IMG/VR virus record: IMGVR_UViG_3300002142_000016
Span: 1-23,408 of that record
Source: a virus
DNA: 23,408 bases
Strand: one strand, 5' to 3'
Under the pieces are notes generated by a model. The model worked only from the letters and a program-made list of their open reading frames with translations. It did no database searches and was not told the DNA's origin. Every line of letters starts with the position of its first letter. Position 1 is the first letter of the stretch. Positions 1-20,063 of this stretch are shown here, in pieces. A program made the translations under genes and the position numbers.

Positions 1-996
1 ATCATCAGTAACTTTAGTAATTTCGTTAGTACCGCCAAGTTCAACAACGGTACCTGCTTCTAGTAAATCATCTGCCGCAAAACGTTCTGCAACGTCGGCG
101 TATTGAGCACTAATATTTGTACCACTAATACCACCAGTAGCACCATTAATTGTCATGGCAGTAGTTGGTACTCCTGCTTTATTAACATTAAATGTTATAT
201 TTCCGTTACTAGTTTGATTATATAGTGTTACTGCTGTTCCTGCAACCCCAATTCGAGCATCTTGATTAGAACCAACTGATAAACCAGTATTATTCAAAAC
301 AGCAAATGTGCCGGTTGTAGTTTCTGCTACATTCTTTAACAAGAAGTCAGTTGGGTCATATCCTTCAAGTGTTTGAGCAACACTTGCAGTTCCTTGGAAT
401 AAAGGAATTTGTGCACCGACCAATGTACTTAATGTAATACCTGGACGGATTGTTGTGTATCCTGAAATAGAGCTTGCTGGAGTAAATGCGGCATCTTTAC
501 TAACAATGCCAACTACATCATCTTCAACATATAATTTAATTACAACGTGACTTACTGCTACGTTGTCTGTAATAGAATCAGCAATAGCACCTGTTGTGCC
601 TTGACCGGATGTAAATGCTGGACCAACTAATAACCAAGCACTACCTGTCCAAACTTTTAACTGAGCATTAACTGTATCGTACCATAAATCGCCTGTTACA
701 TTATTGCTTGGAGCACTTGCTTGAGCAGTAGTAGAGGAAATTGTTTTCCATTGTGCTCCGTTATAGGCTTTCATTAAACCATTGGCACTATCCCACCAAA
801 GTTGACCAGTTAGTGGTGCGCCTGGTGCTGTTGTATTGGAAGAATTTTCCAATAAGTGGATAACGTTTTCGTTTAAGAATTCACCGTAACCAGCGTAATT
901 TTTACCAACCAGAACCATTGAACTGGAAGTATTGATAGTGCCATCTGCAACTGTAGCAAAGATTTGACCATCTGTTAAGTTAATTGTATATGCCAT
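1..996 (-). CDS. Tail fibre protein, N-terminal 332 residues (runs off the left edge)
   Basis: This is the start of a phage tail fibre or receptor-binding protein. The ATG is at 996-994 and the frame stays open to base 1, so the C-terminus is missing. Residues 29-51 carry a block (VGKNYAGYGEFLNENVIHLL) that I know from the N-terminal part of marine T4-like fibres. Two repeats of the GxLWxD type follow, GQLWWDS (64-70) and GDLWYDT (102-108), each followed by a Lys-aromatic-Trp strand. A beta-rich shaft comes next. YADVAERF (299-306) and AGTVVELGG (314-322) mark the beginning of the C-terminal module common in such fibres, which often precedes a chaperone or autoproteolytic region. A good ribosome site (CGGAG) lies about 10 bases before the ATG, and a late promoter box lies 22 bases upstream, so this gene can be expressed separately from the genes before it. 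Fibre identity is strong; which fibre it is remains open. Confidence 0.85.
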   Translation of the reverse strand, partial: MAYTINLTDGQIFATVADGTINTSSSMVLVGKNYAGYGEFLNENVIHLLENSSNTTAPGAPLTGQLWWDSANGLMKAYNGAQWKTISSTTAQASAPSNNVTGDLWYDTVNAQLKVWTGSAWLLVGPAFTSGQGTTGAIADSITDNVAVSHVVIKLYVEDDVVGIVSKDAAFTPASSISGYTTIRPGITLSTLVGAQIPLFQGTASVAQTLEGYDPTDFLLKNVAETTTGTFAVLNNTGLSVGSNQDARIGVAGTAVTLYNQTSNGNITFNVNKAGVPTTAMTINGATGGISGTNISAQYADVAERFAADDLLEAGTVVELGGTNEITKVTDD

Positions 997-1792: not shown

Positions 1793-4700
1793 TTATTCGC
1801 CCCGTAAAAACCTTGCGGCCTCGGTGTCTGTATCTTGTAAAGCAACTCCATTACTTGGAGTACCTACACCGAGTGCGTACCATGTTACACCACGACGTAC
1901 TAAAATAGTAACTTCGGAACCGTCTGCTGGTGCTGTATCAAACAATACAGTAACAGGATTTTCGTTAGTAATTGTATATCCGCCTAATTGTAGTGTTCCA
2001 CCTACATATACTTCAACTGCTTCAATATCAACAGTACTATCAGCGGCTGATACATCTATTAGTGTAGCAACAAACGATGTTGTAACTCCGTCGCCAAGAT
2101 TTACTCCGGATACCAATGGGTTAGTTGTGTTAGAAACAATATAGTTTTGATAGTTTGAGAATAATAAATTACCACGACTAATATTATAAACGTCTGTACC
2201 TACCGCGTGGTCAGCAGCACCAGTTCCGGCTGTTCCGCGACGTAATCCACTAATAGTATTAGTGTTAAGATTACGATTACGATACATAATTCTTTCACCA
2301 TTAATAGTTAATAGTCCCCATACATTACTAGATAAGTTTGGTTGGTTGAGTGCAGCAGCGTTATATACATAAATTGTATCATCGGTAGCACTTAATGCTT
2401 GAGTCAAATATGTTGTAGTTGCAGAAGTAATACGATAAGTTGCTTGGACACCACGCATGTCTTGGAATATACGGAATGCCATTGCTTCTGGAGCAATGCT
2501 AGCAGTAAACTGTGTAATCATTACTACATCAGTTGGGGATAATGTATATCCACCTGCTAGTATAATTTCGTTGTTTAAAACTGTAAAGTCAACATTATTA
2601 AATATTAAACCACCATTTAATGTAACAAATAAACGATCTGGATCTGTGTTTAAGTGATCAATGAATAAATTATTCAGTGAAACCGCTTGAGTAGCACTAT
2701 AATCAAATGATCCGGGATCACCTGTAACATTTCCGGCATCAAAGTTTAAACTATCAAATGGTTCTGTATTTGTTCGTGTACCACCTGTTGGGCCAACATA
2801 TACTTGTGTTAATACATCTTGCTGGCGAGTGTCATTCCAACTTGTTACAGAAATAATTTCTCCGTCTGCCGGTACAAAGCCACCGTACTGATTAAAGAAT
2901 ATTTGATTACCTGTAACTACTGCTTGTGCGTTTGTAGTTACACAGATTAAAATTTTCTCGCCATTTGACGGAGTGATAGCAAATATTACAGCACGTGGAG
3001 TTTCTGCGTCGTATGGTTCAACAATGTAATCTATATTAAGAGTTTGTGGAATATCATTTATATAAACACGAACTTCATTGTCAGCAATTATTTCTTGACT
3101 AAATCCTAAGCGTTGTGGCAATAAGTATTCACTTGTACCATCAGCAAGGTATTGAGCACCGGCAGCAGTTCTGGCACGACGTCCTTCAATAGTAACATAT
3201 ACATTGTCCGGATTAGTATAAATCATACTATTAGTCAGTGTATACAGATATTGATCGGTTACGCCTGTAATATACTGAGTAACTGGTACTGACCAACTAT
3301 AATCTACTAATGTGTCATCAATAGTTGTTGGGCCAATGGCTGCAATCATTAAGTAGTCAACAGCAGTATAGGTGTTAGAGAATGTTAATAATGTGTTTAC
3401 ACCGTCTTGAGCATAAGTGTAATTTGTAATTAAATTACCATTAACAAATATAACAAATTCAGTTATTAAGGAATACTCTACTGGAACTACTAAAGAGTTT
3501 CCAACTTCTTCGCCGTTATAAGGACGTTTAAGTAATTGATTACCGCCGCCAATTTGAAATAATGAAATTACTATAACATCACCAATGTCGGCACCGTTAA
3601 TTATTGTAACGGTACTATTTGCCCAATCAGCAGTATAGTCTGTGCCAATATGTAATAACAAACCTGTAGTTTGATTCTCTACAAGCAATGTAGCAGGAAC
3701 TGGTTCTACTCCAGCAAAACTAAATGTCTCTGGTATTGAACTGGCTGTATATTTTGTAAGTTCTATGCGGAAACCGTGTCCGTCACGTGCCCAATCAGCA
3801 CCAGGTGTTGTGTAAACACGTAGGTCTAATGTATCAAACTCGCTACCAGGAACTAATTCTTCTGGGGCATAACTTGAATATGTGTCAATGTATGCTCCGC
3901 CTTCGGGATTAATACTTGTAGCCAATGTTCCTAAGTAAGGATCGTTGTATGGACTTTCGTAAATAGCATCTAATATTGTTTGATCGTAAGTTGGTCGTCC
4001 TTCTGGACCGTATGTTAGGTTGTCAAATGGTGTTGTATCAAATGGTGATAAGTCAAATCCAGGATATTGATCATATCCCACACCAAACATTTGTACACCC
4101 GGATATTCAACTCCGTCAATTAGCAATGGTAAACTTAATCCTGGCTCATTGGCTGTAGGAGTATAGAAGCCCATTGTACGATCAACACCACTTAGTAATC
4201 CTGGATTAACTATGGTCCACTGATCTGGGTCAAAGGTATCACTTTGAATGCCAGTGCTGTCGTCAGCGTTGGCTTCCCACACACGATTTAAATGACGGAC
4301 CTGTGTGCCATTATCATAATTTACGCCAGCTTCCCATTCAACAATGTCAGATGAGTATTCATATCTGTCATACTTCATTCTAGTAGTGAGTTGGCGAACC
4401 AAATCATTACCCATTGTTACTGCGGCTGCTGCACCTGTTCCATTACCGCCAGTGAATGTTATAATGGCTGTAGTTGTATAACCACTACCATAATTATCAA
4501 TTGTAATACTGGTTACAAGACCGGCACCATTTATTATAGCAGTCATCTCTGCTTGTTCAACACAATCGCCAGTTACTGTAATCACTGGTGCTGTGGTATA
4601 TCCAACTCCGCCATTTGTAATTACAACACCTTGAATAGACAATGTATAATTGTTATACCATTCATCCCATGGTGTTTGTGCCCATAGTGTTGAATTAGAC

Positions 4701-7700
4701 TCTGTGTCGGCATTAAAGTTAGTATTGCTAACAGCAGTTGATTGTGTATAAGGCAACAATACCGGACTAATGAATTGAGGTACTGTTAATGTAGTATCCC
4801 AGTATGCTGGTAAATCAAAGTCGGTCATTAAACCTGGATACGCATCGTTTCCGTTATATGACAAATTAAACTCACGAATTTGTGTATGGTAAGGTTTAAC
4901 TTCTTGTATGTAGTTCAACACAAAATCTTGATTGTCTTGATTGTAGAATTGGTATGGTAACAAATTACGGATTTTATGATCAACATCAATTAAACTAGTT
5001 TTTATCAACCAGTCTGGTGCAGCAAATTCACTCATCACATATTCAAATACTAATATCAACGCACGATTGCGTTCAATTAATAATTCATCAACAAACAACT
5101 GCTCGTTGATTGCTTGAATAATTTTACGAGTTTCGATTACAGGTTCTTGATCAAAGTATTGAGCATCAAAAACTTCTACGTCAAATCCAAAATTGCCAGC
5201 GGTATAATTCCATAATGACTCACTGAATTCAATTGTGCCATCTTCTAATCCTACACGATCCCATCCAAGATCAGTACGTTGATAGATTTCAAACTTGCCT
5301 GTGCCTAGTATGTTAGTTACTTTAACACTTGCGCCAATTGGTGCTATGTTTAATGTTACACTGGCTAACCCAGAATAGTTTGATACTGTGGCCACTGGGT
5401 TTACTGTTTTATTATATCCTGGCAAATACCAATCAATATAACTCCAATAACGACGTGTGTCATAATTTTGAACACGGATTAATGCCAGGTCTTTAGAACC
5501 AATTAATGATCCTGCTATAACTTCATATATTGTCCAGAATCCAGAGTTAGTTGAATCAGATGCCACTAGATATTTGTATCCGTATGGTACAATAAGTAGA
5601 TTTTGATAACTTAATTCTGTAAGAGTTTCAACACGTTTGTTCCATGCACCGGAACTGACTGACGGCTCTGGCTCTCTGCTGTTGAGTAATGTAAAACTCT
5701 TTGTTTCACTGATAGGATACTGTGCTAATACTGTGTTGGCACGGCCTAAATAATTTTGTAATGCTGAGAAACGGTCAACAAACATACTTTGACGTGGACG
5801 GAATTCAACACCGTAACGCATTGCTGGGCTTAATCCAGCGTCGGGTACATTGGCACCGGTAATGTTAATACCAGAGAAACTGTCTTGTAGTTTTAAGTAT
5901 AGGTTGTCACTTAGGAAACTATCTTCACGGCCGTCTGCTATTAATTCATATTCTTGGTGAACGTTGTCATTGTTAACTAACCGATCATATTCAATATGTA
6001 AAATTGTGTCTTGGGCACTTACTAAATCAAGTACATTGTAAATTGCCACTGTGCTAGCATCCAATGGAGCAAGATACGCAATACCACTGGAACGTGGATA
6101 TTCAATATAGTTGGCAATGGCAGTTGTGCTAAGTTTTTTACCGGCAACGGTATTAACTGTGGAAATATTTCTTACCCAGAAATAATAACGAGTGGCAAAT
6201 ACATTTTCAGAATTTAATTCAGCACGAGTAGTATAGCTTAAGAAACTCAACGGAGTTCCTGGTCCTGTATAGTTAGCAGGTGTTACACCACTTTCGACCC
6301 ATTGATAAATGTCAATGCGGCTACCCGGGAATGTTTGTCCCCAACGACGACTTGCGTAAACAATATCATCTTGATTTGGATCAATGAAACGAACCGAGTT
6401 GGTATCCCACCAAATTTGTCCAACTCTTGCTCCACTCCACGGATTACCAACATTGTGAACTGGCCCATTGTTATAGTTCGCTGGATCTACTGCTCCAATG
6501 TAATCAATGTTTTCGCGGGCAACACCAAGGATCTTACCTTGTAATGGATTAAAGAAATCTAAGTAACTAGTAATTTGTGATTCTAATTTGTCATACATGT
6601 AAACAGAATTTAACAACGCAACATCTACCACTGGAGTTTGTTGATGTTTTACTGCCCATGCATTTATTCTTGTTGGATTATCAAATACAACAACTTGACC
6701 AAAATTAGCAAATTGGCTATCTTCTAAATCGTTGCCCGGTGCTCCAACTAATAGTTTACCTGTGATATAACTAAGTCCTGTTCCGTAGTTGTCAAGTTCA
6801 TTGGTTGTATCATTATATAATTGTTGACCAAATACAAATTGTCCCGGATCTGTTACTGTATCGCTGGCACTTGGCAAATAGTCAAATGTATATGCTACAC
6901 CACTTTGTACAATTGTAGTTGAGAATATAGTACTACGGTCATCAAAATAAGTTGTATCATTATCAAATGTCACTGGCTTATACATATTGCCACGCGGTGC
7001 GCCAATGACTAAAGTTAATCCTGTTGAATCAATGGTTAGACTAGACCCAAAGCGAGCAAACTGGCTTGGGTTTGGACTTGTAATAGTTTGTGTATAAGAA
7101 TAATTTACAAAGCCAATGTCAGCAAATGCTGTGCCAGTTAAACCAGGTAACACATTTAATTTTGTTCCTGGCAAGGCAGCAGCAGAGTTTATAACACTTA
7201 TGGTTAATATGCCGGATACTACACGAATTATAGTTTCGTCTGCCGGTGCGCTAACAAATGTAACAATGCCAGTGGTATTATTATAAGTGTAAGTGACATT
7301 TAATGTCTGTAATGTTGTGTTGACGTATATAACCGGTGTGTAACTATCATACTGTGAATATGTCACACCAATATCATATGTTTTAGTAAGGCCGTCGGCA
7401 GTAAAATATAAATCATCACTTACTACTGCTGTAACATTTGGTATACCAATGCCATTATTAGAAGCGTTAATTGCTGTGGCTAATCCAGCTACTGTATTGT
7501 CTGGTCCAGCAGGAACAGTAACTTCGTAGTTGTTAACACGAATTGTATCACCACCTGTTAATGTTGGGTTTGCCACCGGTGATGAAATTATTCCATACAC
7601 ACGAGCTTGATTTACATTGCGTTGAACTGCACCAGAATCGTTATTAGTGTTCTGCGGAGCACCTGTATAAACGCTACAATTTTGTGGACATAAATCTACA

Positions 7701-10700
7701 TCCCATCCAAATTGTGCTTCATAAATTGGTGCATTATTTGCTGTTTGATTTAACGAATCCCAATCAGATGTAGTTATAATTTGTTGTATTTGATTGAATA
7801 TATTACTTTCAATTTCAATTACATCACCAACTACTAATGTAACAGCACTGGTCAATATAACATCGTTAGCAACTATGTTAAATCCACCACCAATAAATTG
7901 ATCTGCATTGGTTAAAAATACATTATTAATTAATACAGCAACAGGTGGTTTCCATCCTGTTGGCAATGCAAAAGTTGTTGTGGCAGTTTCGTCTATTCCA
8001 ACTTGATATCTCAATACGCTACGATCGTAAACATATGTGCTACCAGATTCTAACGCACTAACTGTTGTAGTCGGTGCGCCAATAACTACTTGACGGCCAT
8101 CGGTTGCTGATGCTACGCTATGTCCAAAATTCTCACTACCGGCTGGTCCATCAATCTTATCAATATATTTAAAATATGTTTTGGCTGCTGCCATTATAAT
8201 TGCATCTGGATCTGGATTTGAACCAGCTTCAAATGTAACAGTTGTTCCGGCAAATGTATAATCAATCCACGGACGCTGTACTATTCCATCTACTGTAAGT
8301 GTAAACGAATCAATGTCTGTTGCTGTATACAAATATTCTGCTAGATCAAAATTAGTATCGTTGTCTACTCCGGAACCAACAGGAGTAAATGTAACTATGC
8401 CACCAACAGTCACGCTATCAACTGAAATAACTAAATCATTTGTTGGTGATGATCCGCCGCCAATAGTGGCAGCATTAATTGTAAGTGTATCGCTAACCGA
8501 ATATCCAAGTCCAGGAGCGGTTAATGAAACAGTATATAATCCGCGAGTGCGGTCAACTGTAAATGTTGCTTGTGACCCAGATCCAGATGTTGAATCTTGC
8601 GTTACACCATAATAAACTTGATGATCAAGTTGAGCAGATTCACGACGTGCAATTACAATAGTTAATCCAGAGTCCGGTGCATCAGTGAACAATACCGCAG
8701 TATTACTTAACACATAGTCAATACCTTCAGTTTGTGCTGTATTATTAATAACAACTACTAATTGATCCGGTTGCGTATAATCAATTATAATATTGTCTGC
8801 ATATTGGTATTGTTGATTTACACCATCTGCTATGTATGTTATTGATTGGTAAGTAGTATCAACACGACCATACGCATAAACTGCGTTTTCGTCAGGTGCG
8901 CCAATATATATAATTCTTTCGTCTTTGCTTATTGCAACAGAAGTACCAAAACTTCCTGCACTAGAACCGTAGTCAGGTGCCACTAACAATTGAGGTTGTG
9001 TGAAACTATTAGCAAGGCCGTCTCTGTTAATTACTGAAGCATAACCAACTCCGCTATAGCTAAGACTTGCTCCGGCTACTGCCCAGGTTTGATTTCCAAA
9101 CGCAATGTCATTACCAAATCCCAATGTGTCAAGGGCAGTTAAAAATAATGAATTATCTTCTAAATATAATAAATTATCTCCACGCAAGTAAGGATATACA
9201 ACACCTGTATATGTAGAGGTTGCGTCATTATAGTATGTTGGAGCACCAACTAATGCCGCAATATTATTGTACGCTTGAGCAACACTTGTACCATATCCGG
9301 TATTTTCAATAGGTAAATGTTGTGTTAAAGAATAGTTGTCAGTAAAGACATCTTGTTTTTCTAATACTTCCCATAACCCAGAGCCGTTATTATCAACCCA
9401 GGCCAATGCGCCAGGCACTAAATCATTAGCATACGACAATGATCCAATATCACTTGCTTGTGATACACGCATTGTGTCAAGATAAAATGCTAACCCCGAT
9501 CCAGTAGCAACTGTTTGTTTTCCAGTAAATGTGTAAGCCACTGTCAACGTTGTTGGTGTAGGCGTTGTTAATACTCGGTATATACCATCAAACCCTGCAT
9601 TGAAGAAACGAACAATTAATATATCTCCGCGAGTTCGATTGTGTATTGCCGAGAATGTAACTAAACTTGTTCCGTCAAGATTATCACTTACACGAGTAAT
9701 TTTTCCCGGAGTTTGAGTTGCACGATATACATTCCAATCGTAACTATTTGTTTTAGCTACCCAAATTCTTGTACCATCACCTACGTTGTCAAGATCAGCC
9801 GCAATAGCACTTGGGTCATTTAATGAGAATACTGTAATATCAACATCATTAATATTTACATAGCCTGCACTTGGCAAGGCCGTATCTGTAATAGTAGATG
9901 TTGTGGTAGGTAAAATGTTAGGCGAAGTTAACTTATAACTTTCACGCCATACATCATTTAACAATATGGTTTGGTTTGCTACACTTGTTTCGCCAACATC
10001 AATTACTTGAATTGTTGCTGGATCGCTTTGCAGTAATGCTTCGTTTAATTGTAGTTCAAAATAACTACGGTTGGCATTGGCACCATATGTTCCGCGAAGT
10101 ATTGCCCAGTTTTCGTATATTTGATAATCGGCAATTTCTTTACCAAGGTTTGCACCTGTGAATATTTCTGCACTTAATATAGTACCTTTGGTACCAATAA
10201 ATTGTTTGTATAAATTAACTTGACTTGTGTCATCAAGATTTAATGCAACCATGTAATCACGTGGCTGGAATCCAATCAACCCATAACTTAATAAATCGTT
10301 GTCACGTTCTAAGTTGGCTGTTTGTGTATTGTAACTGTTAGCCAACTGATCTGCTTTGTTAGCAATGTTAGGCAACAATCCTTTTTGTATTTTTGTATAA
10401 TCACTCTTAATCCAATCGGAGTAAGCAAACTCTCGTTTAGGTTGAATAATGTATTGTGCTGACCAGTAGTTATTTTTGTAATTAACAATTTCACCTTTGG
10501 CATACTTGCGATTTGGAATCCAACTCTGTACATTGTCTTGGTTAAGCACAAACCCTTGTGCGTTTAATGTTCCATCCCACTCAGTAGTAGTCATTGCCAC
10601 TACGTTAATACGGTTTTGTCTTGCGGCAGTTGTTGGATTATAAATTAAATCGTTAAAAATACTAACGTTGTCAAGTATTACAAGATTTTCATAACTTGTA

Positions 10701-13700
10701 TAACGTAAGTTAGCAAAGGCAATTGCTTGACCATTGGTACTGGTTACACTGAATCTATTTTCTAAACGTTCAATGCTTAAATTTCTAGCATCAAATGGCA
10801 AGCGGTTTTGATCCAGCATTATATTTTCTATATTCTGCATCATAACATTGTCAATCACTGCACCGGGCTTTTCGGCAATCAATTGAATTGCCGCTGGGTT
10901 TAAATTAATTAAACTGTTTACACCCCAGCCTTGATTTGCCCAGTATAAAAATTCTCTGGCCATTTGTTGCCAATCAAGTGGATAACCGTTTTCGCGATCT
11001 TCTCCAAATATTAATCCTTGGCTGGTTAAGTATTGACCATAACTTAATAAGAAGTCAACCATAGATGATTGGTTTGTGAATACAAATCCGTACGGTACTT
11101 GTACAACATTAGTTGTGTATTGTTTTGGTACACGAACAGTACTGCCGCCAGATGCAACTGTTTGTAATTGTCCATTGGCACGACTTGCTAAAATATTAAA
11201 ATATGGATCGGTGGTTCCGTATCCAAGTACAGCATATCCTGTTGCAACTGCTTGTACAATAACAGCACTATAGACTACCGAGCTAAATGGTACGTTCTTG
11301 TACAGCAATAAATTATAACTTTCGTCTGGCAATAGCAAACTTGAGTTTTGGCTGTTAGGGCTCGAACGCTCTGTGTATACTTTGAGATATTGCTTATCTG
11401 TGAAGCTGGCTGTTCTCCAGCATAGACGAACATCAAGACTTGCCAACGCATCTTCTAATGCATCGGTTGAATTAATACCTAACTGTTGGTTGTAATCAAC
11501 AATCCAGTTTATATAACTTGCTTTACTAACAGGAGTAATAGTCTTATTAATAGTATTAACATGCCCGCCATACACTTGTACACCATTGGCATCTAATCTA
11601 TAACGTCCGTTGTACAAATATTGCTCAAGGTCAGTATCGTATTTGTAAAGGTCGCGGTCAGCAAACAAGCTAAAGAATTCTGCAGGGCGTGTCAGTGCTA
11701 ATAAACGCATAACAGCAAATGGATAGCTACTGCTTGTCCACCATGCGGCTTCGGCCGGACCGCCATCGCCAACTACCCAACTCTTACGGAAAGCATTAGG
11801 ATCATATGATCCAACTACACTTTGTAATGGTGATAGCAATGCTCCCTCTGAACCAGATGGAATAAAATATGTTGACAAGTTTGGACGCTTGTATTTTTCA
11901 ATTACATAAGGTGCTATTGGATCAGCAACATAACCTGCTTGAATGTCATCCCACAATATCAAGTTATCACTTGTATAAGGAATAGGGCCGTAACGACCAG
12001 TCCACCATATAGGACGTTGACTGAAGCCAAGCATTTCCCACGGTGTTGTAGCAGGACTTAATGTATCATAAAAGTCTCTATAAATTCCACGCCATGCTCC
12101 AAGCAATGGCTCATTCTTTTGTTTGTCGCCTGCTTGGCTGTAGTTGTATGTAAACTCGTTGGTATTAATGTATTGTTGAGTTTTGTAATCAATTTTGTTT
12201 TGGCCAACCCATGTTAAGAAACTTTCACCAAGTATAGTTGTAATTTCTGCGGCAGTATAGTCTGTTGTACGGAAGTAACCGGGTATTACATCATCTTCAA
12301 CAAGCGGAACCGGGTTGCCTTGCGTTTTTAAGTTGTTAAAAATTCTACGTTCAAATTCTAACAATATATCATCACGCAAGTCGCCAAATGCGGTAGTAAT
12401 ACTACCGTCATGACCACGGATAACCATTGTAGGATTAACATAGTTTGTATCCAAGAACATTTCTGGTTTATAAGCTCCGTACAATCCTAACTTAGTAGGA
12501 GTATTAGGAACAAAACTTCCGGTAGTTGTAGTATATTCGCGGATAGTAACTTGATCACCAGTTACTAATGTTGTTGTAACATTAATACGTGGACCATCTG
12601 TTGCCACTGTATAATCATAATTCAATGTTAGCAAATTGCCATTAAGATAAACTAACAAACCTAAGAAGTTAGCAGAAGTAAATGTATATGTTTGGACAGT
12701 ATCAAATACTCCAGTGGAAATTGGAGTTACTGTATGAACAACTTCAGTATAGACACTACCACTTGGTATCATGTCACTATAGAAGAAACTGTTTATGTTA
12801 GATTTACCTAGTCCAAGATCAGTGATTATTGAATCAAGAATTTGACTTGTTGTAAATGTACCCCACTCACTTTTAATAGAATTTTCTAACATTCTATTTT
12901 TAAATTTATTATATTCTCTATCGTTAAACTCTAGTGACTTAAATATATTATATTCTGGCTCTCGCATAAAGAAACCAGCCAATGTCACAGGAGCACTTTG
13001 TTGTAATATTGTTGTTCCGTAACGACTAATGTTGCCCAAGTCTCTAGTATTATTAGAGCCGTTAATATGTCCAGAGAAGTTAATAAGATTCTCTGCAATA
13101 CTTTCGTAATGTGTTCTTACTGTGCCTAATGTAAAAGAAGGACTGTTGGCATTAAACGGATTATTTTCTAAGTTAACAGGAACTTCGTAGAATCCTGTAG
13201 CACTAATTTGATCACTTAATACTTGAACTTCAATTACTGACCCGGGAACATAAATTTTGTTGAGAGCAATTAAAGTTGTATTTGTATTTCTAGTAACTGT
13301 GTACTCTTCTGGCAATACAAATTCATTGGCCACATAAAGTAAAATAGCAGGAACTACAGTATTAATAGGAACGTTAATATCTAATTGTAATGTTGTTCCA
13401 TCATATGTGAATTGGAACTGTTGGCGAATTTGACTTGGTGTGGCAGCAACTTCCCATCCAATTTTGCGTGAGTATAAAACACGATTGGCGTATTGATATA
13501 CAAAGCCATCACTAACATTGCCGACAACACCGGACGTACCAGTTACATAATTAAATGTATCAGTATATAAATTGTTATTAAAAACAATATCGCCAATGTT
13601 GCTGAGACTTAAATATTTTATCGGAAATCCTAATACAGGATCTGCTGTTCCTGTCCCGGTTGCATAGCTGAATAGTTTACTACCAATGAATGTAGAACTA

Positions 13701-16222
13701 GGATATGTTGTTTGACTATTAAAACTTATACCATTAGAATCAAACACATCAAATAATGGTGCTTGATTAGTAGATGTTTTTTCTTGTGCTAATATCCAGT
13801 TAACGCCATCAAAGTAATAACTTAGACCTTGCTGTGTTAGTCCATTTAACGCAACTACTGTTTGATTAACAAGAACCGTAGCATCATTTGCTGGAACTAA
13901 ATTTATAATAGGTTGATTAATTAATGGATTAACAGTATCTGGTTCAATAAATGTTACTTCGTATATTTTATTGCGGACTTGTGCGTCTGAATCATTGGCA
14001 AAAATTACACGACTGCCGGTAATAAAGGTATAGCCATCTGTACTGTAACCAATTGACCCGTTTATATTACTAAATGCGTCAGTTGCAGTAAAGTCAATAA
14101 TATTAACTGGTTGTTTACCTTCGGTTCCAAATCCAAATAATTGTGTGCCGGCATTAAATTCTATCACCGGGCGTTTGGCTCTAAAGTTATTGTTTAAAAC
14201 TGCTATAGTATTATTATAATCAGCACTGGTATTAATAACGTCAATGTGGAACCAACGGTTAGATCTTGACCATGCATTTAAATCTGGACTAGCACGATTA
14301 ATTGTTAGATAGTCGGGAATTAAAGGAGCATTATTGGTAGAATCATAGTTGCCAACATCATATCCAATACTATCAAAAGGAATACTAGCACTTTGTGTAT
14401 ATGTTTCAGGAGTAACAAAATCAGCAACTGGCAATAATTTAATTGCAGTACCTACACCTTCAACATAGTATTCTTGATTTTCGTAATTAGTAGGAAATGT
14501 TGTTCCTCGGAATTGGACTTTAAGACCGTTTGTAAGTAATACTCCGTTTGGACTGGTGTATGTTTGTTGACCAATAATATCTTCAATAAAAATTGTACTG
14601 GCTTGATCTTGGTCAATTAATCGTATCTGTCCAAATATTTCTGGATCAGTTCCGTCTTGATAAAATAACACATCTTTGATTGCTGTTAACAAAGGAATCT
14701 GTTCAAATATTCCATCGGCATTTTTATACCATTCTGTACTTGAATATTGTGTTCCAAATAATATATTAAATTTGTCCAAATTTTCAACAGGCAATATGCT
14801 ATTCAATCTAATATATTGTTGTCCGCCTGTTGTAGTAACATATTCAATTTTCCATACGCTATAACGTTGCGCTTGAGTTAATGGTGTTGCTTGCGAAAAT
14901 GATGTACTATCAAAACTACCAGCTCCGGCTACCCCACCACCTGTATTAATTAATGGATCAAATTGTGTAGAAACTTCCCAGCCGCCTTGGTCGGGGTCGG
15001 CATTATTAATAAATGCAACAGTACGCCCATTTAAATTAGTAATCCCATCAATACCACTTGGATTTAGTGAGAAGAACTCTGTTAAAAATTGATTATTAAT
15101 TTGTTCAAATTTTAAATTAGTTATTAAATCAACTGATCCAATACTAGGAAGTGAATAATAAAAACTCTGTGCGGTTGATTGTGGCACACTAAATGTAACT
15201 GATCCAAGATCCTCACCATTGTTAATTACACCCAATACATCTCTACTACTAATGTTTGGTGCCCAAGGTAATGTCCCAGAAACACCAGGTTCCATTTGAA
15301 TCCAAAAGCCAGGTCCAGTGCCCGGTGTTCCATCTACAATTGTAAATGTTCCTTGCATGTTGAATTGTGTTTCACTGGTATAATATAAATTATCCGGTGC
15401 GTCTTGCGGAACTGTAAATGTAATATTGCCAGTCTGTGAACCATTGCGACTTACACCTGTATTGTATTGGTCGCCTGTGCCTTGACTAGGAGCAGTTTTA
15501 ATCCAAAAAGGAGATGTTACATCAAGATTTAAATTAAAGACGTAAGTGTTACCACGAATTAATGTTAGTGCTGGGTTTGGAACATAATCAATTACATAAG
15601 CAGATATACCAGTTGTTGTAACACGAAAGTTTACTGATTCTTTTTCGTTTTGCGCTACATTAAATGTATAGTTGCCGCCGCGAACAAGAGTAATTGCAGG
15701 ATTACTTGTGGTATAATTAGAAAAGTTATATACCCCATTTTCTCTTGTGACAGTATAATCCGCCATCAATGGTACAGCAGTAGCACCAACATCAACCGAT
15801 AACGGTCCTGCTGGTAACCAATAATATTGGCTAAAGTTTACAAACTTATCAAAGTCAACTTGTGGATTCCATGCATAGTATTCACTAGTGTAAAGTCTAT
15901 CGCTGTCATTAGTAAAAGCACCTTGGGTTGCTAAAGCATCACCGATGCCCGGATATGTAATAGCGTCTTCAACGGTATCACTATCGGTCTTTAAGATAAC
16001 AACACCGGGTTCTAATTGGTAGTTGGTGCGAGCGGTTGTAGGTTCAACTACATATCGGTTGTCGGCATTAACGCCTGGGCCAACACGACGTCCAACAAAT
16101 CCTTGTGTCTTTTTAAACTGCGGTTCTTGAACCAGCTGATCCAATGTTGCAGCCAAGAACTGTTTATTTGTAGATGTTTGGAATATCTCGGGTAAGAAAT
16201 CTACCGTTCTCACTTTTGCCAT
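1793..16222 (-). CDS. Giant multi-domain baseplate/tail structural protein, 4809 aa (position of T4 gp7/gp8)
   Basis: This is one uninterrupted frame of 4809 codons (about 525 kDa), starting at a TAATG junction with the gp6-like gene; GGAG lies 7 bases before the ATG. The N-terminus (RTVDFLPEIFQT, then NKQFLAATLDQLVQEP and GRRVGPGVN) is a conserved opening that I know from proteins after gp6 in marine T4-like phages. Approximate module order: cupredoxin-like repeats 170-360; T7-fibre-like beta modules near 941-1004 and 1176-1230; a conserved WWTSSSYPFAVMRLLAL region near 1480-1510; a carbohydrate-binding-like module 1898-1943; seven FG-GAP repeats 2305-3180; a helical region with EYVMSEFAAPDWLIKT and VKPYHTQIREF near 3700-3800; GxGY repeats 3868-3935; a second carbohydrate-binding-like module 3958-4005; and a run of beta modules 4165-4782. 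No enzyme motif or membrane helix was seen. It probably forms the peripheral wedge and host-contact part of the baseplate. That role is inferred from position and domains. Confidence 0.85.
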   Translation of the reverse strand: MAKVRTVDFLPEIFQTSTNKQFLAATLDQLVQEPQFKKTQGFVGRRVGPGVNADNRYVVEPTTARTNYQLEPGVVILKTDSDTVEDAITYPGIGDALATQGAFTNDSDRLYTSEYYAWNPQVDFDKFVNFSQYYWLPAGPLSVDVGATAVPLMADYTVTRENGVYNFSNYTTSNPAITLVRGGNYTFNVAQNEKESVNFRVTTTGISAYVIDYVPNPALTLIRGNTYVFNLNLDVTSPFWIKTAPSQGTGDQYNTGVSRNGSQTGNITFTVPQDAPDNLYYTSETQFNMQGTFTIVDGTPGTGPGFWIQMEPGVSGTLPWAPNISSRDVLGVINNGEDLGSVTFSVPQSTAQSFYYSLPSIGSVDLITNLKFEQINNQFLTEFFSLNPSGIDGITNLNGRTVAFINNADPDQGGWEVSTQFDPLINTGGGVAGAGSFDSTSFSQATPLTQAQRYSVWKIEYVTTTGGQQYIRLNSILPVENLDKFNILFGTQYSSTEWYKNADGIFEQIPLLTAIKDVLFYQDGTDPEIFGQIRLIDQDQASTIFIEDIIGQQTYTSPNGVLLTNGLKVQFRGTTFPTNYENQEYYVEGVGTAIKLLPVADFVTPETYTQSASIPFDSIGYDVGNYDSTNNAPLIPDYLTINRASPDLNAWSRSNRWFHIDVINTSADYNNTIAVLNNNFRAKRPVIEFNAGTQLFGFGTEGKQPVNIIDFTATDAFSNINGSIGYSTDGYTFITGSRVIFANDSDAQVRNKIYEVTFIEPDTVNPLINQPIINLVPANDATVLVNQTVVALNGLTQQGLSYYFDGVNWILAQEKTSTNQAPLFDVFDSNGISFNSQTTYPSSTFIGSKLFSYATGTGTADPVLGFPIKYLSLSNIGDIVFNNNLYTDTFNYVTGTSGVVGNVSDGFVYQYANRVLYSRKIGWEVAATPSQIRQQFQFTYDGTTLQLDINVPINTVVPAILLYVANEFVLPEEYTVTRNTNTTLIALNKIYVPGSVIEVQVLSDQISATGFYEVPVNLENNPFNANSPSFTLGTVRTHYESIAENLINFSGHINGSNNTRDLGNISRYGTTILQQSAPVTLAGFFMREPEYNIFKSLEFNDREYNKFKNRMLENSIKSEWGTFTTSQILDSIITDLGLGKSNINSFFYSDMIPSGSVYTEVVHTVTPISTGVFDTVQTYTFTSANFLGLLVYLNGNLLTLNYDYTVATDGPRINVTTTLVTGDQVTIREYTTTTGSFVPNTPTKLGLYGAYKPEMFLDTNYVNPTMVIRGHDGSITTAFGDLRDDILLEFERRIFNNLKTQGNPVPLVEDDVIPGYFRTTDYTAAEITTILGESFLTWVGQNKIDYKTQQYINTNEFTYNYSQAGDKQKNEPLLGAWRGIYRDFYDTLSPATTPWEMLGFSQRPIWWTGRYGPIPYTSDNLILWDDIQAGYVADPIAPYVIEKYKRPNLSTYFIPSGSEGALLSPLQSVVGSYDPNAFRKSWVVGDGGPAEAAWWTSSSYPFAVMRLLALTRPAEFFSLFADRDLYKYDTDLEQYLYNGRYRLDANGVQVYGGHVNTINKTITPVSKASYINWIVDYNQQLGINSTDALEDALASLDVRLCWRTASFTDKQYLKVYTERSSPNSQNSSLLLPDESYNLLLYKNVPFSSVVYSAVIVQAVATGYAVLGYGTTDPYFNILASRANGQLQTVASGGSTVRVPKQYTTNVVQVPYGFVFTNQSSMVDFLLSYGQYLTSQGLIFGEDRENGYPLDWQQMAREFLYWANQGWGVNSLINLNPAAIQLIAEKPGAVIDNVMMQNIENIMLDQNRLPFDARNLSIERLENRFSVTSTNGQAIAFANLRYTSYENLVILDNVSIFNDLIYNPTTAARQNRINVVAMTTTEWDGTLNAQGFVLNQDNVQSWIPNRKYAKGEIVNYKNNYWSAQYIIQPKREFAYSDWIKSDYTKIQKGLLPNIANKADQLANSYNTQTANLERDNDLLSYGLIGFQPRDYMVALNLDDTSQVNLYKQFIGTKGTILSAEIFTGANLGKEIADYQIYENWAILRGTYGANANRSYFELQLNEALLQSDPATIQVIDVGETSVANQTILLNDVWRESYKLTSPNILPTTTSTITDTALPSAGYVNINDVDITVFSLNDPSAIAADLDNVGDGTRIWVAKTNSYDWNVYRATQTPGKITRVSDNLDGTSLVTFSAIHNRTRGDILIVRFFNAGFDGIYRVLTTPTPTTLTVAYTFTGKQTVATGSGLAFYLDTMRVSQASDIGSLSYANDLVPGALAWVDNNGSGLWEVLEKQDVFTDNYSLTQHLPIENTGYGTSVAQAYNNIAALVGAPTYYNDATSTYTGVVYPYLRGDNLLYLEDNSLFLTALDTLGFGNDIAFGNQTWAVAGASLSYSGVGYASVINRDGLANSFTQPQLLVAPDYGSSAGSFGTSVAISKDERIIYIGAPDENAVYAYGRVDTTYQSITYIADGVNQQYQYADNIIIDYTQPDQLVVVINNTAQTEGIDYVLSNTAVLFTDAPDSGLTIVIARRESAQLDHQVYYGVTQDSTSGSGSQATFTVDRTRGLYTVSLTAPGLGYSVSDTLTINAATIGGGSSPTNDLVISVDSVTVGGIVTFTPVGSGVDNDTNFDLAEYLYTATDIDSFTLTVDGIVQRPWIDYTFAGTTVTFEAGSNPDPDAIIMAAAKTYFKYIDKIDGPAGSENFGHSVASATDGRQVVIGAPTTTVSALESGSTYVYDRSVLRYQVGIDETATTTFALPTGWKPPVAVLINNVFLTNADQFIGGGFNIVANDVILTSAVTLVVGDVIEIESNIFNQIQQIITTSDWDSLNQTANNAPIYEAQFGWDVDLCPQNCSVYTGAPQNTNNDSGAVQRNVNQARVYGIISSPVANPTLTGGDTIRVNNYEVTVPAGPDNTVAGLATAINASNNGIGIPNVTAVVSDDLYFTADGLTKTYDIGVTYSQYDSYTPVIYVNTTLQTLNVTYTYNNTTGIVTFVSAPADETIIRVVSGILTISVINSAAALPGTKLNVLPGLTGTAFADIGFVNYSYTQTITSPNPSQFARFGSSLTIDSTGLTLVIGAPRGNMYKPVTFDNDTTYFDDRSTIFSTTIVQSGVAYTFDYLPSASDTVTDPGQFVFGQQLYNDTTNELDNYGTGLSYITGKLLVGAPGNDLEDSQFANFGQVVVFDNPTRINAWAVKHQQTPVVDVALLNSVYMYDKLESQITSYLDFFNPLQGKILGVARENIDYIGAVDPANYNNGPVHNVGNPWSGARVGQIWWDTNSVRFIDPNQDDIVYASRRWGQTFPGSRIDIYQWVESGVTPANYTGPGTPLSFLSYTTRAELNSENVFATRYYFWVRNISTVNTVAGKKLSTTAIANYIEYPRSSGIAYLAPLDASTVAIYNVLDLVSAQDTILHIEYDRLVNNDNVHQEYELIADGREDSFLSDNLYLKLQDSFSGINITGANVPDAGLSPAMRYGVEFRPRQSMFVDRFSALQNYLGRANTVLAQYPISETKSFTLLNSREPEPSVSSGAWNKRVETLTELSYQNLLIVPYGYKYLVASDSTNSGFWTIYEVIAGSLIGSKDLALIRVQNYDTRRYWSYIDWYLPGYNKTVNPVATVSNYSGLASVTLNIAPIGASVKVTNILGTGKFEIYQRTDLGWDRVGLEDGTIEFSESLWNYTAGNFGFDVEVFDAQYFDQEPVIETRKIIQAINEQLFVDELLIERNRALILVFEYVMSEFAAPDWLIKTSLIDVDHKIRNLLPYQFYNQDNQDFVLNYIQEVKPYHTQIREFNLSYNGNDAYPGLMTDFDLPAYWDTTLTVPQFISPVLLPYTQSTAVSNTNFNADTESNSTLWAQTPWDEWYNNYTLSIQGVVITNGGVGYTTAPVITVTGDCVEQAEMTAIINGAGLVTSITIDNYGSGYTTTAIITFTGGNGTGAAAAVTMGNDLVRQLTTRMKYDRYEYSSDIVEWEAGVNYDNGTQVRHLNRVWEANADDSTGIQSDTFDPDQWTIVNPGLLSGVDRTMGFYTPTANEPGLSLPLLIDGVEYPGVQMFGVGYDQYPGFDLSPFDTTPFDNLTYGPEGRPTYDQTILDAIYESPYNDPYLGTLATSINPEGGAYIDTYSSYAPEELVPGSEFDTLDLRVYTTPGADWARDGHGFRIELTKYTASSIPETFSFAGVEPVPATLLVENQTTGLLLHIGTDYTADWANSTVTIINGADIGDVIVISLFQIGGGNQLLKRPYNGEEVGNSLVVPVEYSLITEFVIFVNGNLITNYTYAQDGVNTLLTFSNTYTAVDYLMIAAIGPTTIDDTLVDYSWSVPVTQYITGVTDQYLYTLTNSMIYTNPDNVYVTIEGRRARTAAGAQYLADGTSEYLLPQRLGFSQEIIADNEVRVYINDIPQTLNIDYIVEPYDAETPRAVIFAITPSNGEKILICVTTNAQAVVTGNQIFFNQYGGFVPADGEIISVTSWNDTRQQDVLTQVYVGPTGGTRTNTEPFDSLNFDAGNVTGDPGSFDYSATQAVSLNNLFIDHLNTDPDRLFVTLNGGLIFNNVDFTVLNNEIILAGGYTLSPTDVVMITQFTASIAPEAMAFRIFQDMRGVQATYRITSATTTYLTQALSATDDTIYVYNAAALNQPNLSSNVWGLLTINGERIMYRNRNLNTNTISGLRRGTAGTGAADHAVGTDVYNISRGNLLFSNYQNYIVSNTTNPLVSGVNLGDGVTTSFVATLIDVSAADSTVDIEAVEVYVGGTLQLGGYTITNENPVTVLFDTAPADGSEVTILVRRGVTWYALGVGTPSNGVALQDTDTEAARFLRGE
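1880..3735 (-). repeat. C-terminal run of T7-fibre-like beta modules in the giant protein
   Basis: Residues of about 4165-4782 hold five diverged copies of a 55-70 residue module. The pattern is a hydrophobic strand, then V-x-V-NG (or similar), a short turn ending in D-Y/F-x-V, then a strand with F, a P-x-D/G-x turn, and a final V-x-I strand. Approximate copies: 4165-4223 (HIGTDYTADW), 4243-4295 (EFVIFVNGNLITNYTY), 4363-4428 (VRVYINDIPQTLNIDYIV), 4513-4571 (LFVTLNGGLIFNNVDFTV) and 4708-4782 (VEVYVGGTLQLGGYTI, then FDTAPADGSEVTILVRRG). The last copy resembles the repeat type near the N-terminus of podovirus T7-like fibres. Between copies four and five lies a phage tail motif with INGERIMYRNR and SGLRRGTAGTG (about 4645-4685). 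Confidence 0.6.
4210..4350 (-). other. Second carbohydrate-binding-like module in the giant protein
   Basis: Residues of about 3958-4005 have the spacing of short CBM5/12-type modules: W, then Y-x-x-G-T-x-V, then R-V-W-E-A, then D-x-W at the end. Visible pieces are VEWEAGVNYDNGTQVRHL and NRVWEAN, ending FDPDQW. It lies next to two GxGY repeats (VTNGG-type, about 3868-3935). Sugar binding is not shown; the fold may be used only as a structural strap. Confidence 0.45.
6690..9300 (-). repeat. Seven FG-GAP repeats: predicted seven-bladed beta-propeller
   Basis: Seven blades are visible at about residues 2308-2327 (GYGTSVAQAYNNIAALVGAP), 2368-2387 (GFGNDIAFGNQTWAVAGA), 2421-2449 (SFGTSVAISKDERIIYIGAP), 2696-2718 (NFGHSV to VVIGAP), 2835-2855 (QFGWDV to VYTGAP), 3055-3075 (RFGSSL to LVIGAP) and 3143-3160 (NYGTGLSYITGKLLVGAP). 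Most end with a V-x-V/Y-x-aromatic strand. FG-GAP repeats build the seven-bladed head of integrin alpha chains, and the count of seven fits one closed propeller. Gaps 3-4, 4-5 and 5-6 contain extra beta modules. Confidence 0.7.
10395..10530 (-). other. First carbohydrate-binding-like module in the giant protein
   Basis: Residues of about 1898-1943 read W-x-x-x-x-x-Y-x-x-G-E-I-V-x-Y, then N-N-Y-W-S-A, and close with S-D-W (pieces: QSWIPNRKYAKGEIVNYK, NNYWSAQYI, YSDWIK). This is the aromatic spacing of CBM5/12 or chitin-binding-like modules. It is similar in plan to the module near residue 3958 of the same protein. The assignment comes from the pattern alone. Confidence 0.45.
15150..15710 (-). 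repeat. Cupredoxin-like repeats near the N-terminus of the giant protein
   Basis: Residues of about 174-360 contain repeated units. Unit one opens NPAITLVRGGNYTFNV (about 174) and unit two opens NPALTLIRGNTYVFNL (about 215). Unit two continues PFWIKT, GVSRNGSQTGNITFTVPQ, then APDNLYYTSETQFNMQG. A third partial unit has GFWIQM (about 305), GVINNGEDLGSVTFSVPQ and FYYSLP (about 328-358). The plan is that of the cupredoxin-like module common in marine phage structural proteins. In the better-known copies the segment after YY carries Cys, His and Met; only Met remains here. Confidence 0.55.
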
Positions 16223-19200
16223 TAAATTACTCCGCTGCCTGGGGCAGTTCTAAGGTTAGTACTTGTTAATGCTTCAATAACTTGAATGTCAACTACGGTA
16301 GCAGCGTTGACAAAAATCTCGTTAGGTGCTGATCTAATTTCATATAGATCACCAAAACTCTTTTGTGGGTTTAATGGCACTAATACGGCAGAACTCACGA
16401 TGTCGCCCATCTGTTGATGTAAGTATGCTGACAATTCTGAGAAGTAAAATGTATCACCAAAGTCCCAATTTTCAATTGCAAAATATGCATCTAAGTTAGC
16501 AACAACCGAACTCTTAATTTCACTAACAGAAGCAGTTGAGTTGCTGGCACGAATAACTTTAATAGTTGCTCGTAATTGTTCTGCTGCCTTGGCACCAAAC
16601 AACGGTTTAAACTTTACAGGATTCACAATCATGTTGTCAGAAATCATTTTATAATTTTGTAATCCTGCATACTCTGTACTTAGCGCATCAATTGTTGGGG
16701 GTGTTGGCACCGGTATGGTGTTAGTAGAATCTTGAATATAATTTCTATAAGCAGTATAGTAATCTTGTGTCACAACATACAAATCAATAATGTTTGACGA
16801 TCCTGGATCAATACGATTAGTCAACGCACTATTGTGACGGTATTGATAATATAAATCTTGACGTCCGATACGTGACACATATTCAGTTGTTGCCACCAAT
16901 GCTGTTGTTCCAGCTGTGGTTATACTTAAAATATAAAATAACTCATCGGTATACGCATAGAATACTTGTCCAACAAGGTACTGTGCTTTTTCTAATGTAA
17001 TATTGTTTAATGTTGCATATTGATCATTAACAATCCCGGAGTCAACTAACACATAGCGTTCAAGATTATCAAAGTCGACAATCTGTTGGAAAAATACTAA
17101 CTTAGTAGTTGAGTTTACACTTGGAGCAACTATTTCTTTAAAGAAATCTGGATCATCTGGTACGCCGTCGGCATCTCTATCTTGCCAAGATACCAATACT
17201 TGATAATCGTCAACATATCCATCTGGTTGTACTGGTTGAGCAATAATACGCATTGTAATATCGCTATCAAGTGGCAAGTTTGAATCTGGACGACTATTTG
17301 TTTTTAATACTCTTACAAAGTCGCGAATAACTGTTCCTGTGCGGCTATCATAAATTTGTTCGTCGCCATAGAAGAAGAATCTTGTTTCAAGTACACTACC
17401 AAAATAATAATTTAATGCCCTTGTTGTTACTGTGTATGATTCGCCATCTGTGACAAATTGTACAACCCAACTTGCATCTAAATTTGCACCTGATGTATCA
17501 CCTGCGTAATCTTCATTCCATGTTGCATTAACAGCAAGATTGGTAGAAGTGATTACATACCATGTGTTAGTTAAGTTGTTATAACCTAGACCAAAATTAC
17601 GATATAATTCAATTTGCGCCAACGCACTTTGTTTAACAGTTGTACCTAAGTCAGTTACAAATAATGGAATAACTTCAACACATTGTGCATTTGTAGGAAC
17701 ATAGTTATTAAGAACAACAGGACCTAACCCATTGGCAAAATTTCCTAATCCTTGATTAGTTCCGTCAAGATATACCGCAGTAGCAGAAGCCCATATAGTT
17801 AATTTTTCATCAGCCCTTGTGGGGGTGCCTAATACTAATCTATTATTGGCATCAAAGTAATAACCAGTTGGAGATCTAAATTTAATTAAACTACCAATCT
17901 GAATATATTTCATGTTATTACTGGCATATACTCCTACTGACACAGGAATACCAGCAGTATTTTTAAAATAACCAGTAGTTTCATTTGCTAATGTTGTACT
18001 TAGATTCCAACTTACTGCCAACGCAGTCAATGATGGTCTTGGATAGTTAGCATAGTAAAATTGCTTGGCAGCTTCTGTTGCCAGTATTGGTTCAACACGA
18101 TTAGAAAGTATATCACTAATGTCATTGGTGGTTAACCAGCTAAACAAAAATGTTGGTAATTCGTTTGATTCATATAACGCACCATCACTACCAAATGTGT
18201 TTGTAGAACTATACTTGCCAGTGTTATCAACTAAATCAAGATAACGACTTGTTCCAATTGAAGCACGGTTAAGTGCTTTGGATTTAATAATTGAATTGTA
18301 TTGTGTAAACGGAAAGTTATTATAATCTTCACCATTGACCATACGGTTTTGTGTATAGTAACGAGCAGGGGCACGTTGTTTAATTTCGTCAATGGTCTCA
18401 CGAGCAAGAGCATTGCTCACTGGCTCTGTTATACCACAAGTAACTGTTAATGTTTCTGTTTGTCCAGTGCGACTAATATAAGCAATGCTTAATACTACAC
18501 TTTGCATTTCTTCTGGATTAATAATATATTGCAATCCATTTGAAGCACGAACATACGCACGGAAAAATCCAACTGGAATTTCAGAAAATACGCCATCACC
18601 AAAATTCATTGTAATTTGATCATTTGATCTGCTGGTGACTGAATACAAAGGACGTAATGTTGTTTGTTGTTCAACTGCGGCAGTATAAACACTTTCAACA
18701 AAATCCCATTCACGGGCAATGTTGCCTACATTATCTAACTGGTACAACCAGCGGTCTGTGTTGTTAACACCTTCAATATTAACATTGACTGCACGGTTAG
18801 CAATACGTTCTGCTAAATTAAAATCTTGATTCTGTAGTACACCTTGTTTAAACAAGAAGAAGAATCCTGTATTAGAAGAAGCAAATCCTAACTGGTCGTT
18901 GCGAAACAACATTCCAAACTTTCCATTGGGTAATGGGCTTGGTTCGTAGACATATTCTACTCCGGCGGCTAGTCCAGCAGCAGTGGCACTAACAGCCTCA
19001 AATGGCATATTAACGCCATCAACTACAGCACTATAAGGAATTACAGGAAGGAATCCCGGAATTAAATTAACCGTGTATTCATCTGTACGAATGCCTTGAA
19101 TAGTAGTTCTGTTGCCAGGACGACCAACACGCTGAGTGTTTACTAATGTAGAATTTATAATGGCATTGAATTGCTCTTGCCAATCAAAATTTGTAGGGTC

Positions 19201-19688: not shown

Positions 19689-20063
19689 TTATGAATATCC
19701 AGCAGTTTGAGTTTGCTGGTCAAAATATAAACTTAAAAATTCAGTTGTTTGTCCAGGAACCATAGTTACTTGCAGTTCGATTAATATGCCATTTTCTTGT
19801 GGATACATGTCAGCAGATTGTAAATAAATTCGTGGGTCTAAGCTGGCTATACGCTGTATTTCTGCTAAAATAGCACGTTCAGTATCTTGTGTTTGATTTT
19901 CAAATATGTAATTCCATATTTGAGTTCCATATCCAGGGCGGCCAACTAATTGCCCTTGCTGTATATTAAGCGCATTCAGCAGATCACGCTTGACTAACTC
20001 AAAATCTACTAATGTAAATTTCTTTGTTTGCCCTATTGTATTAAATCCTTTGAATGTTGTCAT
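19689..20063 (-). CDS. 25: gp25-like baseplate wedge protein / sheath initiator, 124 aa
   Basis: This is the small baseplate protein that nucleates the contractile sheath and is conserved across myophages, type VI secretion and related injection machines (gp25/GPW family). Its length of 124 residues compares with 132 for T4 gp25. The central element LVGRPGYGTQIWNYIFE (39-55) is the family core with the turn before the conserved wedge helix. After it come a helix (ERAILAEIQRIASLDPRI) and a beta hairpin (GILIELQVTMVPGQT), the normal order of this fold. It starts 16 bases after the preceding gene, with a weak GAG site. Being next to gp6 is the usual order in marine T4-like phages, unlike T4 where gene 25 lies apart from gene 6. 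Confidence 0.92.
   Translation of the reverse strand: MTTFKGFNTIGQTKKFTLVDFELVKRDLLNALNIQQGQLVGRPGYGTQIWNYIFENQTQDTERAILAEIQRIASLDPRIYLQSADMYPQENGILIELQVTMVPGQTTEFLSLYFDQQTQTAGYS

Follow-up and report, generated by a model that had tools for sequence, protein, structure and literature searches.

A predicted seven-bladed FG-GAP propeller within a giant virion structural protein of uncultured jumbo phages

FG-GAP repeats of P0001 and their predicted fold

The window analysed here is the whole 23,408-base virus record IMGVR_UViG_3300002142_000016. Its genes follow one another on the minus strand in the order gp5-like hub, two small genes, gp25-like, gp6-like, a 4809-amino-acid protein, a 206-amino-acid protein and a fibre-like protein. 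The 4809-residue protein, termed P0001, is encoded by an open reading frame at positions 1793-16222, directly after the gp6-like gene, the end of which its start codon overlaps at 16222. It is a giant virion structural protein of the family phrog_10938 (profile match, E 1.8e-297), and its residue n begins at window position 16222-3(n-1). The subject of this report is a stretch of FG-GAP repeats in P0001, residues 2291-3193 (6644-9352; all window positions given are on the minus strand), which is predicted to form a complete, closed seven-bladed propeller of the integrin alpha type with inserts.

A strict FG/YG...GAP/GAS expression, run over all of P0001, found exactly seven motifs, at residues 2310, 2369, 2425, 2699, 2838, 3058 and 3146, so that the seven FG...GAP repeats reported in an earlier note on this DNA are borne out. 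In 2000 shuffles of P0001 the mean was 0.082 motifs and the maximum 2. The profile search against the FG-GAP families agreed with the note as well. Pfam FG-GAP_2 (PF14312) matched the whole protein with 41.8 bits against a cut-off of 23 (E 1.3e-10), and of three single matches in the window one passed the cut-off alone. Among five other large contigs searched from the propeller clade, the group of relatives with six or seven blades described below, the family passed its cut-off in four (L003, L041, L044 and L105) and stayed under it in L093. Chance, composition and frame artefacts were ruled out by the shuffles, a reversed control and conservation.

The repeats were delimited from the motifs and the strands of the structural model. 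Repeats 1 and 2 cover residues 2310-2355 (9158-9295; YGTSVAQAYNNIAALVGAP) and 2369-2413 (8984-9118; FGNDIAFGNQTWAVAGAS), respectively. The first three strands of repeat 3 lie at residues 2425-2454 (8861-8950; FGTSVAISKDERIIYIGAP) and its fourth strand at residues 2683-2691, with an insert of residues 2455-2682 (8177-8860) in the connection between them. Repeat 4, residues 2699-2740 (8003-8128; FGHSVASATDGRQVVIGAP), is where the best FG-GAP_2 stretch was found (2694-2732), and its insert comprises residues 2741-2800 (7823-8002). Repeat 5 at residues 2838-2871 (7610-7711; FGWDVDLCPQNCSVYTGAP) has its insert at residues 2872-3040 (7103-7609), and repeats 6 and 7 occupy residues 3058-3135 (6818-7051; FGSSLTIDSTGLTLVIGAP) and 3146-3195 (6638-6787; YGTGLSYITGKLLVGAP). 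The uneven spacing of the repeats is due to these beta-rich inserts of about 228, 60 and 169 residues in repeats 3, 4 and 5, all placed between the third and the fourth strand in the model. A hidden Markov model (HMM) of a beta module of about 50 residues found at least ten copies of it in P0001, and four of about five inserted units of the propeller are such copies, two in repeat 3 (at residues 2477 and 2629), one in repeat 4 (at 2740; match 2740-2805) and one in repeat 5 (at 2950; match 2950-3001). Outside the propeller the module was matched at residues 1179, 4187, 4248, 4386, 4525 and 4721. By eye it is like the N-terminal domain of the T7 tail fibre. Conservation within the propeller is high in the FG-GAP strands but not in the inserts and some of the loops.

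The structure of residues 2250-3220 was predicted with AlphaFold2 from an 81-row alignment of relatives gathered from viral contigs, which gave a predicted local distance difference test score (pLDDT) of 88.0 and a predicted template modelling score (pTM) of 0.87. Blade count and ring closure were judged from the DSSP strands and by alignment with known propellers of seven blades. In VIA-align comparisons, integrin alphaM (9t3y) aligned with model residues 42-944 with a Z of 33.6 and a root-mean-square deviation (rmsd) of 2.6 over 355 residues, and integrin alpha5 (4wjk) with a Z of 31.9 over 372 residues. Integrin alpha heads overall gave Z 31-34, rmsd 2.6-2.8 and 17-21% identity. WD40 propellers also reached Z 31-34, but with an identity of 7-16%. 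The best Foldseek matches in the PDB include integrins, and the best viral ones include FG-GAP proteins of phages and giant viruses. The earlier note had supposed that a predicted structure would close into seven blades comparable with integrin alpha, as is the case in the model. It had set the propeller at 6690-9300 (residues 2308-3178), a location that held, although the extent was slightly narrow against the 6644-9352 of the model. Since integrin residue 1 aligns at model residue 42, the ring probably closes as in integrins, with an N-terminal strand (a DSSP strand at residues 2294-2299; 9326-9343) joining blade 7.

The heads of integrins alpha4, alpha5, alphaM and alphaV likewise have seven FG-GAP repeats in a closed propeller, and their alignment with the model starts at integrin residue 1 and extends over the complete propeller. 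Integrins carry DxDxDG calcium loops between FG and GAP, whereas a D-x-D-x-D search found none in the FG..GAP stretches of P0001 and two in those of all 81 aligned rows. P0001 has strand 3-4 inserts in repeats 3, 4 and 5, whereas in integrins the only inserted domain, if any, is an I domain that lies between blades 2 and 3. An integrin is an extracellular alpha chain with thigh and calf domains, a membrane anchor and a beta partner; the propeller of P0001, in contrast, is built into a phage structural protein in which Pfam found no integrin domain beyond FG-GAP_2. Profile searches gave no significant match of the propeller or core profiles to solved structures related by sequence, and tblastn found no propeller relatives among annotated phage records.

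A variable slot between conserved cores

The propeller occupies a slot between conserved cores at P0001 residues ~1860-2060 and ~3205-3400. The slot varies in length from 227 to ~1560 residues. It has 227-368 residues in many relatives and ~980-1230 in the propeller clade, and the propeller has therefore been added to a scaffold that is retained in relatives lacking it. Blades were counted with a blade HMM built here in 286 slots, a sample biased to relatives of the window, each search having kept the best 80 of more than 560 loci; seven blades were found in 118 slots, six in 10, one to five in 67 and none in 91. The HMM matched neither the reversed slots nor the remainder of those proteins. 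When it was iterated on all slots, the profile became shorter and the counts in the propeller clade lower, and the counts given are those of the earlier profile. Outside the propeller clade they are lower bounds; in L072, of a sister clade, Pfam found an FG-GAP_2 repeat that the blade HMM missed.

In a tree of the cores, the 128 slots with six or seven blades, the window included, formed one clade with a support of 1.0. Besides the slot of the window, this propeller clade holds those of further uncultured phages. In its sister clades most slots are shorter, with fewer and partly detectable blades, and the cultured phages fall outside. No blade was detected in the slots of any of the ten cultured phages examined.

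The phrog_10938 giant proteins of RaK2, 121Q, CBB, PA5oct, Atu_ph07 and Phosso share with P0001 the position after gp6 and the N-terminal, middle and C-terminal cores, but have no FG-GAP blade, their slots holding 235-350 residues or ~1560 residues of other repeats. The slot measures 235-236 residues in RaK2, 121Q, CBB and XaC1, 296 in Vibrio phage 2.275.O, 350 in PA5oct and MIJ3, and 537 in SCTP-2, where a LamG domain suspected by eye was not confirmed by Pfam. The ~1560 residues in Atu_ph07 and Phosso (L011 16980-21662; L016) are glycine-rich repeats of the form GxGYxxxPxVxVxGG. Inside the slot of contig L203 (7649-10003) a CBM_5_12 chitin/sugar-binding module passes the Pfam cut-off with 26.7 bits, and this module was matched in five of ten giant homologues, in relatives that lack the propeller. 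Judged by these sequence matches, the slot holds different binding-type domains across relatives, and a definite place in a virion protein can be named at which the domains differ between relatives.

Within the propeller clade, distances of propeller and cores were strongly correlated (Pearson 0.90, 87 sequences). The mean distance was 0.48 for the propeller and 0.34 for the core, so that the propeller diverged 1.4 times faster. Close relatives share 78-83% identity in the propeller versus 86-93% in the cores, and distant ones 45-51% versus 59-75%; the least conserved stretches of P0001 are the propeller and the far C-terminal part. The faster divergence fits what would be expected of an exposed domain inherited with its scaffold.

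Place in the virion and possible function

A tblastn search with the middle part of P0001 found 57 annotated phage records at 24-31% identity, all of them jumbo phages of the RaK2, 121Q, CBB, PA5oct, Atu_ph07 or Phosso type and a few more. The nearest annotated relatives are of the RaK2, PA5oct and Atu_ph07 types, at 23-29% identity. With gp6, tblastn found 63 annotated phage records, and in these jumbo phages the gene next after gp6 always encodes a protein of 3.3-4.6 thousand residues (synteny in L010-L019). Homologues of P0001 have been found in virions. PA5oct gp355 is a virion protein by electrospray ionisation tandem mass spectrometry (record note), CBB_236 yielded 21 peptides in virion proteomics (PMC5259590), and phAPEC6 gp245, of 382 kDa, yielded 17 peptides in the virion and adjoins the baseplate wedge protein gp244 (PMC7247149). 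These homologues and the abutting gp6-like gene uphold the earlier description of a propeller inside a phage structural protein, and gene order and the virion proteomes of relatives indicate that P0001 is likely located in the baseplate. T4 genes 6 and 7 overlap, with gp7 after gp6, and P0001 likewise comes directly after a gp6-like gene, an order that by itself suggests a relation to T4 gp7. Profile comparisons detected no similarity between the two proteins (hhalign probability below 4% for four core profiles). With the nearest annotated relatives being those given above, the term 'T4-like' used in the earlier note is too strong for P0001 and is not supported.

Propellers that phages use, or are thought to use, for host contact have been described before (PMC4901313). 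The seven-bladed propeller of phiKZ gp131C (PDB 4GBF), at the baseplate periphery of a jumbo myophage, was proposed to be a receptor-binding or enzymatic head (PMC4901313). It shares with P0001 the blade number and its setting in a tail protein of a jumbo myophage, but belongs to a different lineage and protein. Gp45, the receptor-binding protein of Staphylococcus phage phi11, has a baseplate propeller thought to hold the N-acetylglucosamine (GlcNAc) receptor (PMC4901313); unlike the built-in, seven-bladed propeller of P0001, it is a separate trimeric receptor-binding protein of a siphophage and has five blades. A further propeller belongs to the host-contact device P2 of PRD1 (PMC4901313). 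Among jumbo phages related to RaK2, Sinorhizobium phage AP-J-162 has an integrin-like 'hemagglutinin' of 375 residues, gp213 (PMC11242549). Its homologue in Agrobacterium phage Atu_ph07 is gp320; FG-GAP_2 matches occur in Atu_ph07, and BFVD gave a match as well. These are separate proteins of ~375-394 residues, whereas the giant-protein slot of Atu_ph07 is without an FG-GAP blade. In Sinorhizobium phage Phosso, FG-GAP_2 was matched 55 times in other genes (L309 48338-68978, 92124-94532), the matches being carried by two huge hypothetical proteins of ~3.2 and ~3.7 thousand residues and two of ~400 residues. This number far exceeds one seven-bladed ring, and several propellers may be present.

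Propellers in phage host-contact devices and FG-GAP or integrin-like domains in phages are thus already known, and the novelty that the earlier note had claimed stands in a narrower form. New are the variable slot, the presence of an FG-GAP propeller in a giant protein of the P0001 type, and a blade number that stays constant throughout a large clade of uncultured phages. A literature search of incomplete coverage found no earlier description of FG-GAP in a phage baseplate protein. Part of a family listed in databases as 'hypothetical' or 'virion structural protein' can now be named and assigned a fold, and the propeller indicates that a phage tail protein can incorporate a seven-bladed head of the integrin type and retain it through long divergence.

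Then, what might the propeller do? The best explanation, to which we give an even chance, is a built-in, non-catalytic adhesion head that binds a ligand on the host surface. In a large clade of uncultured jumbo phages related to RaK2, the head is inserted into the giant tail or baseplate protein that follows gp6; it would project, with its surface exposed, from the conserved scaffold, would bind a host glycan or protein, either at the cell surface or on the capsule or matrix, and would add to the tail fibres during attachment. We favour this explanation because binding propellers have this fold, because the propeller has been added to the scaffold and changes more quickly than the cores, and because a sugar-binding module occupies the slot in other phages. 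The receptor contact and the place on the baseplate rim suggested in the earlier note are plausible, and for a large jumbo-phage group without cultured members the propeller offers a candidate for host contact. A bolder form, in which the integrin-like head sits permanently in a central baseplate protein of this widespread clade as the primary host adhesin, and the slot is a site of interchangeable binding modules (FG-GAP propeller, CBM_5_12 and others) across RaK2-type jumbo phages, seems rather unlikely to us.

Several points weigh against an adhesion head. Integrin-type calcium loops are missing from the sequence. In the usual propeller topology strand 3-4 connections lie on the face opposite to the integrin ligand face, and it is in these connections that the model places the inserts. 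The propeller is inherited with its scaffold (r=0.90), unlike an often-swapped host-range cassette, and no hypervariable tip was seen. The C-terminal core (residues 3200-3880) gave a model of pTM 0.57 with a best Z of 3.9 and no fold match above Z 4, in addition to the absence of T4 gp7 similarity, and the placement of P0001 in the baseplate is therefore likely only. As a hint to the host, photosystem genes were searched in 14 contigs of propeller phages, and none was above the cut-off.

The main rival, which is possible though somewhat doubtful, holds that the propeller is an architectural part that binds phage proteins, for example by docking tail fibres or whiskers or by bracing the wedges, with no host contact. 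Vertical inheritance with the scaffold, at the same correlation, agrees with it, and so do the blade number and inter-blade spacing kept throughout the propeller clade, the beta module that the inserts share with the rest of P0001, suggestive of scaffold-like packing, and the fact that FG-GAP propellers generally bind proteins, as established for integrins. However, relatives with the same core and gp6 neighbour have a slot that is short or otherwise filled, and the propeller is therefore not needed for the shared architecture; its faster divergence compared with the cores also argues against such a part. It is improbable that P0001 lies outside the baseplate, as a component or carrier of tail-sheath whiskers or of some other surface decoration headed by the propeller. 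Hair-like appendages along tail and capsid are known from CBB and phAPEC6, where their proteins were left unassigned (PMC5259590, PMC7247149), and sequence and fold searches tied the giant protein to no known baseplate protein; yet in the window and in cultured relatives its gene comes directly after gp6 and near the gp25 and gp5 homologues, which is the position of T4 gp7. Several phage propellers are enzymes, endosialidases being named among them (PMC4901313), but an enzyme head, such as a glycan hydrolase or lyase with polymers of the host surface as its substrate, is very improbable here, as the FG-GAP family shows no enzymatic signature, Pfam and NCBIfam gave no enzyme family, and the nearest folds, integrin and WD40, are binding propellers.

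Neighbouring genes and further observations

The gp6-like baseplate wedge protein (16222-19635) matches phrog_10646 (E 4.4e-280) and the baseplate wedge subunit phrog_219, and the gp25-like baseplate wedge protein (19689-20063) matches phrog_43 (E 6.4e-12). The gp5-like baseplate hub protein (21488-23002) matches phrog_13211 (E 7.8e-37), with Phage_base_V slightly under the cut-off, and its matches to an OB-domain and a DUF2345-like domain are both under the Pfam cut-off. No lysozyme domain was found in it, whereas the hub genes of RaK2 and 121Q are annotated as lysozymes. Near the N-terminus of P0001, residues ~165-370 (15113-15730) contain tandem stretches, e.g. NPALTLIRGNTYVFNL...NITFTVPQDAPDNLYYTSETQFNMQGTFTIVDG, which by eye resemble cupredoxin-like domains that have lost their copper ligands and have no Pfam match. 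The protein at the edge of the window (1-996) carries repeats of the type GQLWWDSANGLMKAYNGAQWKTIS, which are seen where it matches several families of phage structural and tail-fibre proteins.

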